The notes beneath the pieces were generated by a model, which saw only the letters and a list, made by a program, of their open reading frames with translations, did not search any database and was not told the DNA's origin. This document shows positions 4,870 through 25,917 of a stretch of 50,993 nucleotides of DNA, piece by piece. The stretch comes from Lachnospiraceae bacterium (GTDB lineage Bacteria > Bacillota > Clostridia > Lachnospirales > Lachnospiraceae), in contig JAGAPK010000014.1 of the NCBI GenBank assembly GCA_017623295.1, positions 1 to 50,993 on the forward strand, in the 5' to 3' direction. The position numbers were made by a program, and so were the translations under genes. The stretch's first letter is position 1; every line of letters starts with the position of its first letter.

Positions 4870-5409
4870 TTATAACCCTAGAATCTGTTTTTTCTTCAAG
4901 TCAAATTCTCTTTGTGTGATTATCCCTTTATCTTTTAGTCGTTTTAGTTCTTCTAGTTTTCCATAATCATTAGATGAAGATGTTGATCCAGAGCTTTTTA
5001 ATCTAGAAATCAATTCTTGAATTAAATTATATAATTTGCTAGAGTTAGTATTTTCTAAGGCTACATTAAATTTCTCTTTCATACTATCAATCGTAATAAC
5101 ACCAAATGCAAGCCCTTTTTTATATGTGATGTCATTGATATTGTCCAAAAGTACTGTTTGCACAACTTCGCCGACAACCTTTTTCTGAGCCATAATTATA
5201 CGCTTATTAGTTATTGCATACGCAAAATTATTATCGTGTTTTGTCATAGATACAAAATTATGTAGCCCAACAAAACATAATAATACATCTTCACCGGAAG
5301 AAAGTTGATTTTCTATTACTGTAAAGTGTTTTAGAGTCCATGATTCTGTATTACCTTTTCCAAATTTGTTCTTTTTGCAGAAATTAAACATTTCTTTTGC
5401 TGTTTTCAT
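4870..5409 (-). CDS. PH-like and SHOCT domain protein
   Basis: A 179-aa soluble protein. Residues about 30-125 look like a bacterial PH domain (GEDVLLCFVGLHNF...AYAITNKRIIMAQ...ITYKKGLAFGVITID). Residues 150-179 are a SHOCT motif (LEELKRLKDKGIITQREFDLKKKQIL). SHOCT tails often accompany membrane or oligomeric proteins. The ATG overlaps the upstream stop by 4 bp and has AAGGAGA 7 nt upstream. Pairing with a small membrane protein suggests a lysogen-expressed accessory module; function is unknown. Confidence 0.75.
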   Translation of the reverse strand: MKTAKEMFNFCKKNKFGKGNTESWTLKHFTVIENQLSSGEDVLLCFVGLHNFVSMTKHDNNFAYAITNKRIIMAQKKVVGEVVQTVLLDNINDITYKKGLAFGVITIDSMKEKFNVALENTNSSKLYNLIQELISRLKSSGSTSSSNDYGKLEELKRLKDKGIITQREFDLKKKQILGL

Positions 5410-22042: not shown

Positions 22043-23500
22043 ATGCTAAAAACAAGTGAAATCAAGCGTTTTATTGAGGATGATAACTCTTCCGAAAAGA
22101 AGCGTCTTGCAAGACAAGGAATGAAATATTATGAAGGTGAACACAAGATCATGGGTTCGCGAATATTCTACTTTGATGCTGACGGAAAATTAAAAGAAGA
22201 TACTTTGAAAAGCAATATTAGAATTTCACATCCGTTTTTTACGGAATTAGTTGATCAGGAAGTACAGTATATGCTTTCTGGTGAGGGGAATTTCATTAAG
22301 TCAGATAACCCCGCTTTGCAGGATGAATTAGATACATATTTTGACGATTCATTCTGGTCAGAAGTATATGAAATGCTTACAGGGTGTATTTCCAAAGGTT
22401 TTGACTATATGTATGCATATCAGACTGCTGATAACCGGATTGGTTTTCAATGGGCTGATTCTATGGGTGTGGTTGAAGTCAGGGCAAAAGATACAGATGA
22501 TAAAACCGAATACATGATTTATTGGTATATTGACCGGATTGAAAAAGGAAAGAAAACGATCAAGCGCATTCAGGTATGGGATAAGGAACAGGTTTATTAT
22601 TATGTGCAGGTGAATGATGGCAATGTAACACTGGATAGGGATGCAGAGCTTAATCCAAAACCACATATAGTAACAGTAAATGAAAAGAAAGAAAAGTTTG
22701 GTTCTTCTTTTGGATTTATACCCTTTTTTAGACTAGATAACGGTTCAAAACAGTTCAGCGGTTTGAAGCCGATTAAAAATTTGATTGATGATTATGACTT
22801 GATGGCTTGTGGACTTTCTAATAATTTGCAGGATTTCACGGATGCAATCTATGTTGTATCCGGTTTTCAGGGTGCTGATCTTGATGAAATGGTGCAGAAT
22901 ATTAGAGCCAAGAAGCATGTTGGTGTGTCTGAAAATGGTGGTGTAGAGATTAAGACTGTTGACATTCCGTATCAGGCAAGACAGGTAAAACTTGATCTTG
23001 ATGAAAAGAACATTTACCGTTTTGGAATGGGATTTAATTCAGCACAACTTGGTGACGGAAACATAACTAATGTGGTTATTCGCTCAAGATATGCCCTGCT
23101 TGATTTGAAGTGCAATAAATTAGAAATCCGGCTGAAAGAATTCTTGAGAAAGATAATCAAAGTCGTATTGGATGAAATTAACAGGAATAACAGTACAGAT
23201 TATCAGATAAAGGATGTGTATTTCAAATTTCAGCGAGAGGTTATCACAAATGCTTCTGATAATGCACAGATTGAACTCACAGATGCACAGAAACAAGGGC
23301 AAATGATTGATAATCTGTTGAAGGTCTACAATATTCTTGATGATGAAACGATCATTCAGGAAATATGTGCCATACTTGATATTGATTATGAAAGTATCAA
23401 AGATAAACTTCCGAAGGACGAAGAAAAGGAAACAGAACAGATCAGACAGACATTGGACAATATTGTTCCTGATGATATAGGCGGTGATGCTGATGAATAA
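22043..23500 (+). CDS. Portal protein, SPP1 Gp6-like
   Basis: A 485-aa portal of the SPP1 Gp6-like family, recognisable from IKRFIEDDNSSEKKRLARQGMKYYEGEHKI at the start and the central ...GFIPFFRLDNGSKQFSGLKPIKNLIDDYDLMACGLSNNLQDF. The acidic tail is typical. AAAGGTG precedes ATG 22043; an in-frame ATG at 22019 lies in terL. It forms the dodecameric vertex for DNA entry. Confidence 0.92.
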   Translation: MLKTSEIKRFIEDDNSSEKKRLARQGMKYYEGEHKIMGSRIFYFDADGKLKEDTLKSNIRISHPFFTELVDQEVQYMLSGEGNFIKSDNPALQDELDTYFDDSFWSEVYEMLTGCISKGFDYMYAYQTADNRIGFQWADSMGVVEVRAKDTDDKTEYMIYWYIDRIEKGKKTIKRIQVWDKEQVYYYVQVNDGNVTLDRDAELNPKPHIVTVNEKKEKFGSSFGFIPFFRLDNGSKQFSGLKPIKNLIDDYDLMACGLSNNLQDFTDAIYVVSGFQGADLDEMVQNIRAKKHVGVSENGGVEIKTVDIPYQARQVKLDLDEKNIYRFGMGFNSAQLGDGNITNVVIRSRYALLDLKCNKLEIRLKEFLRKIIKVVLDEINRNNSTDYQIKDVYFKFQREVITNASDNAQIELTDAQKQGQMIDNLLKVYNILDDETIIQEICAILDIDYESIKDKLPKDEEKETEQIRQTLDNIVPDDIGGDADE

Positions 23501-24956
23501 AAGACAGCTTGAAGTTCAGAAAGCCCAAGCATCCGATGAAGCTCAGGTTATTAAGCAGCTAAAGCGTGTGTATACACAAGCAAGGAAGGATTGCGAAGCT
23601 AAGATTAGGGAACTTTCAAGCAGAACCGATATGGAAAATCTGCAAAGCATTGTGTTCCAAAAGCAGTATCAGGAAGTATTGAAAAATCAGATTGATGCTA
23701 TTTTGAACACACTGAACAATAACTCCTTTACAACAATTGCTGATTATTTAGGTAAATCTTATGAAAATGGATTTTTGGGAACACTTTATGATCTACAAGG
23801 TCAGGGTGTTCCTTTAATTTTCCCTATAAATCAGGAAGAAGTAGTTCAGGCTTTGCAAGTGGATTCAAAAATATCCCAAGGGTTGTATCAGCGTATGGGT
23901 GAAGATACTGATAATCTGAAAAAATCAATCAAAGCTGAATTGTCAAGAGGTGCTGCTAATGGCGAAAGTTGGAATCAGATAGCGGCACATATTGCAAATG
24001 GTATGAATAGCCCCTTTAATAAGGCATTTAACCGTGCTATTGGTATTGCAAGAACAGAAGGACATCGAGTAACCCAAGAAGCTACATATCACTGTCAGCA
24101 ACGTGCAAAAACCAAAGGTGCAGATGTAGTGAAACAATGGGATTCTACGCTCGACGGCGCGACAAGACCCACTCACGTTGAATTAAATGGTCAGATCAGG
24201 GAAATTGATGAACGGTTTGAAGTGGCGGGGCATAGTGCTCCTTATCCGGGGGCTTTTGGTATCGCAAGTGAGGATTGTAATTGTCGATGCTGTTTGTTAC
24301 AGCGTGCAAAATGGGCTGTGAGTGAGGAAGAATATTGTACTAAGTGGGATGGGAATAAGAATGAACTTGTCAGAATCAACGCAAAGAATTATGATAAGTT
24401 TAAGGAACAAGCAAAGATACATTTATTGAAAACACAGTTTCCTGATGATGTATTCAAAATAAATGGTATTACAGATGAAGTTAAGGACGAACTAGAAACT
24501 GCTTTGTTGAAATTAAAATCTGAATACGATATTAGGCTAAATGAAATATTAGTTGAAAAAGCAGGGAAAAATGATATTTTTATTACAGGCTATCATGATG
24601 GCGTTGTTGACATGGTAGTCAATGAAGCAGCGGATTTTGACAGAATTATAAGAAACATGAGAAAGAAATATAAAAATGATTTCTTTGCAGGAAAGACGTT
24701 GGAAGATTATCTTGCACATGAAATGGCTCATGTTATGATGTACCAAGATTGTACAACTGAAAATGAATATTACGCAAAATATCAACAGATTAATTCGTTG
24801 TATGGTGTCTTAAAAGGTATTTCTGGTTATGCTGATAAAGAAGAATCAGGGAATGAAGCATTAGCAGAAGCATTTGTTAGAGTGCGAAATAAAGAAAATG
24901 TGTCACCAATAGTAAAAGTATTAGTTGAATCTTATTTTGGAAGGTGGAAAAAATGA
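23493..24956 (+). CDS. MuF head-morphogenesis protein fused to zincin-like domain
   Basis: A 487-aa two-part protein. Residues about 1-280 are a SPP1 Gp7/Mu F-type minor head protein, with RAIGIARTEGHRVTQEA, then a DSTLDGATRPTHVELNG core and the terminal EDCNCRCCLLQRAKW. Residues about 320-487 are an added domain with HEMAH (HExxH, 24717-24731, near residue 409) and a downstream NEALAEAF that fits a third zinc ligand. MuF proteins with C-terminal enzyme or toxin domains are known in temperate phages. Start ATG 23493 (AGGCGG 8 nt upstream); 23484/23487 are alternatives. The next gene overlaps its end by 4 bp and may be its partner. Confidence 0.88.
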   Translation: MNKRQLEVQKAQASDEAQVIKQLKRVYTQARKDCEAKIRELSSRTDMENLQSIVFQKQYQEVLKNQIDAILNTLNNNSFTTIADYLGKSYENGFLGTLYDLQGQGVPLIFPINQEEVVQALQVDSKISQGLYQRMGEDTDNLKKSIKAELSRGAANGESWNQIAAHIANGMNSPFNKAFNRAIGIARTEGHRVTQEATYHCQQRAKTKGADVVKQWDSTLDGATRPTHVELNGQIREIDERFEVAGHSAPYPGAFGIASEDCNCRCCLLQRAKWAVSEEEYCTKWDGNKNELVRINAKNYDKFKEQAKIHLLKTQFPDDVFKINGITDEVKDELETALLKLKSEYDIRLNEILVEKAGKNDIFITGYHDGVVDMVVNEAADFDRIIRNMRKKYKNDFFAGKTLEDYLAHEMAHVMMYQDCTTENEYYAKYQQINSLYGVLKGISGYADKEESGNEALAEAFVRVRNKENVSPIVKVLVESYFGRWKK

Positions 24957-25126
24957 GTCTGAAATTACCAAAATGTGATTTTTGTAAGCATTTGGATGAG
25001 GGAGATTTTTACAAGTGCCCCGCATTTCCTAATGGTATACCTTTGGATAGCATATCAGATGATGAAGATGCAGAATGTTCTAATGGTATAAAGTATGAAG
25101 CTGATTCAAGCGATCAAAGCACCTAA
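24953..25126 (+). CDS. 57-aa Cys-rich protein, possible immunity partner
   Basis: Sequence starts MSLKLPKCDFCKHLDEGDFY, then KCPAFPNGIP and an acidic tail ending in CSNGIKYE. The CDFC/KCPAFP pattern is a small conserved type that I recall beside phage head genes and toxin loci. GGAAGGTGG lies about 6 nt before the ATG, which overlaps the MuF-zincin stop. An intrinsic terminator follows directly, so the two genes end this transcription block. Immunity or chaperone function is inference from position and size. Confidence 0.6.
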   Translation: MSLKLPKCDFCKHLDEGDFYKCPAFPNGIPLDSISDDEDAECSNGIKYEADSSDQST

Positions 25127-25142
25127 TAATGGTGCTTTTTAT
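25116..25142 (+). terminator. Intrinsic terminator after Cys-rich gene
   Basis: AAGCACC at 25117-25123, loop TAATAAT, GGTGCTT at 25131-25137, followed by TTT. It overlaps the stop codon of the small gene. Confidence 0.75.
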
Positions 25143-25213
25143 GTGCAATTTAATAAGGAAAGGTAAGGTGATCTAATATTTATCTCCCAACTATGGGTTA
25201 AATAGTAAATGCG

Positions 25214-25240
25214 CAGCATCCTGAATAGGGGTGCTTTTTT
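25214..25240 (+). terminator. Second intrinsic terminator before scaffold
   Basis: AGCATCC at 25215-25221, loop TGAATA, GGGGTGCT, then TTTTTT. The stretch 25143-25332 between the small gene and the scaffold gene contains no gene that I can support and no strong promoter. Confidence 0.68.
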
Positions 25241-25332
25241 AATACCTATCGTCAGTGGTGACGTAAAACACCTGCCAAGTAAATTCGTGACATAACACGT
25301 AAAAATTGTATGAAAGGTATAGGGTAAACGAT

Positions 25333-25917
25333 ATGACACTAAAGGAAATTTTAAAAACACAGGGGCTTACTGATGAACAGATCGAAAAAATCATCGGTGA
25401 GATGAAACAGAACAATATTTTCACGGCAAGTGAAGAAAACCTTGATACAAGGTATGGAAAGCTGAAAACTGATCATGAAGGTGTGACTAAACAGTTGACA
25501 GAAGCGAATGCTTTAATTGAGCAGTTGAAAAAAGGTACAACCGATAATGAAGCGCTACAGGGCAAAATCACAACCTATGAAACAACCGTTGCTGATTTGA
25601 AGACGCAGTTGGAGCAGGAAAAACTTAATTCTTCTATTAAGATTGCATTACTTTCCGCAGGTTGTAAGGATGTGGATTATGTAACGTTCAAGCTGAAAGA
25701 AAAAGGCGATCTTTCGCTTGATGAATCCGACAAGGTTAAAGGTATGGATGATAAAATTGCCGCCTTAAAAACGCAGTTTCCGGCACAGTTTGAATCTGCC
25801 AAGGATAATCAGATTGAGGTTAATCAGCTTCCAAAGGGTTATGATAGAAGTGGGACGGAAGAACCCAAGACTTTAGCCGAGGCCCTAAAACAGCAGTATG
25901 AAAAAGTTACAGAATAA
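25333..25917 (+). CDS. Phage scaffolding protein (Gp20-like)
   Basis: A 194-aa helical scaffold: MTLKEILKTQGLTDEQIEKIIGEMKQNNIFTASEENLDTRYGKLK, then a long coiled coil (about 45-110). It matches the phage minor structural GP20 family that guides capsid assembly and is expelled or degraded afterwards. The start ATG 25333 fits the family; the upstream in-frame codon at 25306 lacks a site. It precedes the capsid gene by 27 bp. Confidence 0.88.
   Translation: MTLKEILKTQGLTDEQIEKIIGEMKQNNIFTASEENLDTRYGKLKTDHEGVTKQLTEANALIEQLKKGTTDNEALQGKITTYETTVADLKTQLEQEKLNSSIKIALLSAGCKDVDYVTFKLKEKGDLSLDESDKVKGMDDKIAALKTQFPAQFESAKDNQIEVNQLPKGYDRSGTEEPKTLAEALKQQYEKVTE

Follow-up and report, generated by a model that had tools for sequence, protein, structure and literature searches.

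We describe a candidate toxin cassette of the MuF polymorphic type in a prophage of a Lachnospiraceae bacterium. The DNA analysed, here called the window, is a stretch of 50,993 nucleotides (contig JAGAPK010000014.1, assembly GCA_017623295.1); it is a prophage that encodes an integrase, terminase genes, portal, scaffold, major head protein, tape measure and endolysin. The cassette consists of the C-terminal domain (CTD) of the prophage's MuF head protein and the 57-residue Cys-rich product of the small gene directly behind it. Comparison of related loci shows that the two form a pair, which is exchanged jointly and recurs on different head proteins. We propose, with a probability of about three in four, that the CTD is a zinc metallopeptidase effector and the small protein its immunity protein. 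An earlier note made from the letters of the window had suggested a phage-delivered metallopeptidase effector with immunity, and the comparative evidence given below speaks for that suggestion.

The MuF protein, its C-terminal domain and the small partner

The MuF gene has two of the features by which MuF polymorphic toxins are recognised: 1) it lies in the order portal, MuF, scaffold, i.e., inside the packaging/head module of a temperate phage, and 2) its product has an N-terminal MuF domain, which matches PF04233 with 55.9 bits against a cut-off of 29.6. The further domain that the earlier note had called zincin-like is borne out by conservation. In alignment A3, which contains the window protein and 11 relatives, H409, E410 and H413 of the HEMAH motif, Y446, and E455 (24855-24857) and E459 (24867-24869) of the segment GNEALAEAF are all invariant, from which we conclude that HEMAH is not a chance occurrence. 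The AlphaFold2 model of the CTD (pLDDT 91, pTM 0.87) places HExxH on one helix and a glutamate on a later helix, both conserved, as in zincins. The CTD is, as modelled, a predicted zincin fold with conserved active-site residues. In four of five pairs its dN/dS lies in the range 0.06-0.15, dS being high or saturated.

VIA-align, run on Foldseek's own list of matches, shows a resemblance of the CTD to lethal factor and PPEP-1, which we take to be M34-like zincins, at about 9-14% identity to PPEP-1 and the catalytic domain of lethal factor. For the last 187 residues no Pfam match exceeds the cut-off of its family, and PF07737 (ATLF) is not among the Pfam matches of the window protein at E up to 1. 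When PDB sequences were searched with the CTD profile (E up to 1), the chains returned were engineered or unrelated, with no M34/PF07737 chain among them. The Pfam scan at E up to 1, which included no model called up by name from the Tox-MPTase1-5 set (Zhang 2012), listed none of these families.

The neighbouring gene agrees with the earlier description of a Cys-rich protein of 57 residues that overlaps the MuF gene and is followed by a terminator. It has four Cys codons and its start overlaps the toxin stop as ATGA at 24953, and its own stop codon lies inside the loop of a terminator-like hairpin (Table 1). The 61-nt fold containing this hairpin reaches -14.8 kcal/mol (z -2.07), a value matched by 7 of 200 shuffles; the mechanical terminator scan does not list it, the plus-strand entry being the second hairpin at 25215-25235. 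The small protein of the window matches the phrog_33375 profile (E 3.3e-4), as do 15 of 21 members of the partner family, the best with E 1.9e-9. The best matches in Pfam (13 members) and NCBIfam (21 members) reach just E 0.066 and E 0.085, so these collections hold no family for the partner, and a plasmid search with the window partner gave no match at E up to 1. The core of the family is C..C...C.AFPDGIP...H/C, where the fourth place is H in 82 of 89 sequences and C in 7 of 89, a count that is suggestive only, as the regular expression accepts whichever C or H comes first behind the motif. Four conserved Cys/His of this kind point to metal binding.

Table 1. Features of the cassette and its surroundings in the window
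Feature	Positions	Strand	Basis
MuF head protein with predicted C-terminal zincin effector domain, 487 aa	23493..24956	+	ORF from ATG 23493, stop 24956; PF04233
MuF domain, residues 145-268	23925..24296	+	Pfam PF04233, E 8.8e-15
C-terminal predicted zincin domain (CTD), residues 301-487	24393..24953	+	alignment A3; AlphaFold2; structure comparison
HEMAH, residues 409-413: predicted zinc ligands H409, H413, catalytic E410	24717..24731	+	A3 invariance; predicted helix
Y446...E455...E459: predicted third zinc ligand region and tyrosine	24828..24869	+	A3 invariance
Likely ribosome-binding site of partner gene, GGAAGGTGG	24939..24947	+	sequence
57-aa Cys-rich partner, predicted immunity protein, AFPxGIP family (phrog_33375)	24953..25126	+	ORF; phrog match; adjacency
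Terminator-like hairpin AAAGCACC-TAATAAT-GGTGCTTT across partner stop codon	25116..25138	+	folding
Second terminator-like hairpin	25215..25235	+	mechanical terminator scan
Exchange cassette (CTD, partner, terminators)	24416..25233	+	blastn against L027-L030, L033, L035, L036
Conserved non-coding leader of scaffold gene, right cassette edge	25234..25332	+	blastn, covariation

Joint exchange of the domain and its partner

Relatives of the MuF protein were collected as 48 loci via the N-terminal domain, together with the loci of further searches. This yielded 59 complete MuF loci, which reduce to 41 distinct ones by the last 150 residues; single-linkage clusters of CTDs lumped several zincin types and were kept out of all counts, and the MuF loci include the near-duplicate rows L028/L029 and L041/L042. 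The MuF domain is related in all 41 distinct loci, of which 31 end in a long C-terminal tail and 10 in a short one. A small ORF lies directly downstream of 29 of the 31 long tails as against 2 of the 10 short tails, i.e., it accompanies the toxin-type and not the short MuF genes, as expected of MuF toxins. The tails themselves vary behind a conserved MuF part, another feature of these toxins: on MuF parts up to 81% identical we find zincin tails with HEMAH, HEYGH, HESGH, HEWGH, HEFGH, HEIGH, HEATH and other motifs, tails with a JAB-like HNHP domain or a papain-like- or ART-like-looking domain (labels that we presume from remembered motifs), or just about 42 residues. The AFPxGIP partner stands behind all six HEMAH tails (one of these loci, L003, came from the CTD search alone) and behind 0 of the 25 other long tails. 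The earlier note had asked whether relatives swap both parts together, and they do: CTDs of the same type have an AFPxGIP gene, and other CTDs have other small genes.

The edges of the exchanged segment can be located in the DNA. The loci L027-L030, L033, L035 and L036, which carry another CTD or none, match the window in blastn up to 24316-24415 and again from 25234-25249. Because homology breaks at both edges, we conclude that the exchanged unit is a single stretch comprising the CTD, partner and terminators. The left edge alone is seen in L037, and the contigs of L025 and L026 end there. Relatives with the same CTD (L001, L034, L074, L075) stay homologous through the CTD as far as 24993-25100, and their match begins again at 25516-25663.

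A profile of the CTD applied to the collected loci at E up to 1e-10 found 26 distinct ORFs. The partner is immediately behind all 23 that have a 3' end, and behind 18 of 18 when the partner-motif finds L112, L123, L134, L176 and L216 are excluded; of the other three ORFs, one is truncated by the end of its contig and two are 5' fragments of broken genes. Three weak family-search matches (L102-L104, E 6e-4 to 8e-4), which fall below the CTD profile threshold, have no partner listed. The carriers of the CTD differ and include PF04233 MuF proteins and members of the minor capsid family PF06152 Phage_min_cap2 (L079, L098, L100). Over 19 loci, four of which came from the motif scan described below, the similarity of partners follows that of the CTDs (partial r 0.51, 0 of 5000 permutations as high) and not that of the carriers (partial r 0.13, p 0.07). 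In L009:1200-2012 (the L078 region) a broken MuF-zincin gene is followed by an intact partner gene.

Several observations were made alongside these comparisons. In L079:4579-5647, three consecutive AFPxGIP genes follow the Phage_min_cap2-zincin gene, the second of them after a JAB-like fragment. A standalone zincin with a partner occurs on a bacterial contig (L080:3959-4740), downstream of what appears by eye to be a methyltransferase/restriction-like gene pair. Four relatives of the MuF part at 23493-24302 (L025, L027, L056, L058) have a CTD that is papain-like by eye, with GD.TSGSCAS; a related partner of ~70 residues is behind those of L027, L056 and, by eye, L058, and the contig of L025 ends there. 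The papain-like CTD with its ~70-aa partner offers a second toxin/partner pair for study. In L064, a short MuF gene and the scaffold leader are separated by a tRNA gene (4961-5033), which occupies the slot where toxin and partner are found in other phages. In L007 (genome G046, same genus) 3561 bp around the locus are identical to the window, which points to recent prophage movement or to two near-identical genomes.

The scaffold leader at the right edge can be drawn by eye as two 4-bp hairpins, the stems of which covary in 12 loci with 99% of cells paired. The stems contain 13 double-change cells versus 4.7 in shuffles, and three pairs with double changes, a level reached by 99 of 500 shuffles. 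Its match to Rfam GP20-b (RF03003) is sub-threshold, at 18.4 of 36.2 bits here and 21.6 in L028, with none in L050; the L028 leader has a sub-threshold match to DapZ as well.

The AFPxGIP family and the role of the pair

The motif C.A[FY]P[DN]GIP was scanned as DNA through IMG/VR, blind to neighbouring genes, which yielded at least 120 loci, all matching the family profile, with at least 111 partner sequences distinct over the first 45 residues. The counts of upstream ORFs in this section refer to the matches listed. An upstream ORF in range is present for 100 of 111 partner genes (11 have none), and 70 of the 100 contain HExxH in their last 260 residues. Two controls put this number in perspective: HExxH occurs in 17 of 803 other open frames of at least 200 aa, taken from all frames of the same loci (Fisher p 1.8e-63), and in the N-terminal 260 residues of 1 of 57 of the same upstream ORFs of at least 520 aa. 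The pattern E..[AST]E follows HExxH in 67 of the 70 zincin ORFs, and Y..E..xE does so in 51 of the 54 zincin rows of alignment A6. The stop-start distance between zincin and partner is at most 10 nt in 56 of 70 pairs.

The other 30 upstream ORFs were classified by eye into 8 with JAB-like and 11 with ART-like ends, single cases of zeta kinase, RelA/SpoT, GNAT and a zincin variant, and 7 unclassified. Pfam was run on the 75 of 100 upstream ORFs that are 300-900 aa long, with matches to PF04233 (43), PF06152 (6), ADPrib_exo_Tox (4), ART-PolyVal, Peptidase_Mx and ATLF (2 each), and zeta toxin, PARP, GNAT families and two portal families (1 each). Two of these 75 match the intein splicing domain and one the Hint module (A6), so that some head effectors may contain inteins or undergo Hint processing. 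The nearest neighbour of a partner belongs to its own toxin type for 63 of 70 zincins, 2 of 8 JAB and 4 of 11 ART cases. Cultured phages are represented as well: Flavobacterium phage lotta8 (lotta8-2) has a MuF zincin (HEFGH) with a partner, and Brevibacillus phage Jenst has a virion-annotated HEIGH protein with an AFPxGIP gene two genes further on.

We infer peptidase activity, toxicity, inhibition, zinc binding, packaging and delivery of the pair, and the proposed sequence of events is as follows. The head protein would carry the zinc metallopeptidase as its C-terminal effector domain, and the immunity protein would be made by translational coupling with the toxin; the gene order and overlap imply that both are made together, late, and with the head. 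The 57-aa protein probably folds round a C-C-C-C/H zinc knuckle and, by analogy with the Apk2/IapK pair, where the active site is occluded by a small partner (PMC12226406), probably binds and blocks the peptidase domain during virion assembly in the producing cell. MuF proteins are located in the phage head, so entry of the phage DNA would also bring the peptidase, unaccompanied by the small protein, into the next cell, and there it may cleave a cytosolic target.

The following points weigh against this proposal. Foldseek finds no match to the CTD model in the PDB at E <= 0.001, and the structure model of the partner is poor (pLDDT 50), giving no structural backing to the zinc knuckle or to a complex. 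Other zincin tails on the same MuF backbone are accompanied by other small genes; the partner thus has no fixed link to zincins in general. The same partner family stands behind JAB-, ART-, zeta- and RelA-like domains, a breadth that one would not expect of an inhibitor dedicated to metallopeptidases, and clustering of partners by non-zincin toxin type is weak, the signal being carried by the zincins. In cellular genomes a clear upstream zincin is present in 2 of 23 profile-found loci (L093 and L228, among L083-L096 and L226-L234), with context covering roughly 1.5 kb; L089 has an ART-like frame upstream, and a HELLH-bearing ORF 167 nt upstream in L231 was excluded from the zincin count. Finally, in the available text on the set to which lotta8 belongs, 38 isolates are called virulent and one other phage is named temperate (PMC7077304), which suggests a poor fit with competition between lysogens and makes such competition unlikely as the sole use of the pair.

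Some of these points would be accommodated if the zincin were an injected host-takeover or anti-defence enzyme and the small protein a holding factor or zinc loader, which keeps head-borne effectors inactive or aids their folding until packaging. One small-protein family shared by such diverse effectors, its presence in a phage among those reported virulent (PMC7077304, available text), and the metal binding suggested by its four Cys/His would all suit such a role. We nevertheless consider it unlikely, on four grounds: 1) the small partner is a different one where the MuF protein has another CTD, 2) partner similarity tracks the CTD rather than the carrier, 3) the partner is retained where the toxin is broken, and 4) the three tandem copies in L079 resemble an immunity array.

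A role of the CTD in head maturation, as a protease acting on scaffold or head proteins, is very improbable; the earlier note had listed a scaffold-cleaving maturation protease among the findings that would overturn its proposal. Residues 1-385 of the MuF ORF do match phrog_595, annotated as a head maturation protease, and one Foldseek match is annotated as a capsid maturation protease. However, ten distinct relatives are short-tailed and lack the CTD, among them L033 (MuF part 68% identical), L036 (66%), L031, whose tail has 90 residues, and seven more; in others the place of the CTD is taken by JAB-like or papain-like domains. A scaffold-like ORF still lies downstream in 8 of these 10 short-tail loci (there is none in L031, and L053 stops at the contig end). 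Since relatives lack or replace the CTD while the scaffold-like ORF persists, the CTD is not needed for head maturation, and this candidate was rejected. Self-processing to free parts of a larger virion protein, as proposed for polyvalent proteins in the available text of a study that ties one such zincin to lethal factor endopeptidase by profile comparison (PMC5512222), is equally improbable here, where the zincin is the last and only effector domain with no cargo to free but the MuF part.

We suggest tentatively, and at somewhat less than even odds, that phrog_33375 is a general zinc-knuckle immunity fold for head-borne effectors, mainly metallopeptidases and also JAB-, ADP-ribosyltransferase-, zeta- and RelA-like ones, with stray bacterial copies acting as orphan immunity against incoming phages.

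Comparison with known systems

The general class to which the cassette would belong, i.e., MuF metallopeptidase toxins with small ORFs, has already been published. Delivery by MuF proteins and the Tox-MPTases were described in 2012 (PMC3482391, Zhang et al.), zincins in polyvalent phage proteins in 2017 (PMC5512222), and among 191 putative MuF toxins a metallopeptidase domain was found in 20%, with a small ORF behind 89.4% of toxin genes (PMC5576092, Jamet et al. 2017). PHROGs lists no function for phrog_33375, which the present analysis links to head-borne effectors, and the openly licensed PMC full texts (supplements aside) do not name the family or its motif, the strings AFPDGIP, AFPNGIP, AYPDGIP and phrog_33375 being absent from them.

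In the literature as available, the action and control of metallopeptidase MuF domains are unsettled, and a recurrent partner family without assigned function gives a handle on them. The partner also flags head-borne effectors in unannotated phages: among the matches listed, 70 of 111 partner genes are behind a zincin-type ORF and 23 behind another effector-like domain by eye. The cultured phages lotta8 and Jenst offer candidate toxin-immunity pairs, with which one can ask by experiment whether the injection of proteases by phages serves to harm, rewire or disarm the next cell.

The cassette shares with the MuF polymorphic toxins (PMC5576092, PMC3482391, as far as their available texts go) the MuF N-terminus encoded in the head module of a temperate phage, an exchangeable CTD and a small ORF behind it. 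The available text of PMC5576092 assigns no immunity to MuF metallopeptidase toxins, whereas here a specific Cys-rich partner family accompanies the zincins. Zhang's table (PMC3482391, as available) gives Tox-MPTase1-5 without listed immunity, and Imm-SuFu for lethal-factor-like toxins, without MuF among the delivery systems of the latter; here the carrier is MuF. The CTD differs from lethal factor and PPEP-1 in that it rides on a phage head protein and has a partner gene. Further parallels are Apk2/IapK (PMC12226406) and Bxa (PMC11699363), where, according to the available texts, a MuF toxin is likewise accompanied by an adjacent small protein, which there blocks it by binding. Their effectors are an alarmone synthetase and an ADP-ribosyltransferase, in contrast to the predicted peptidase described here, and they carry a second, enzymatic immunity gene, in contrast to the single Cys-rich partner of the present cassette.

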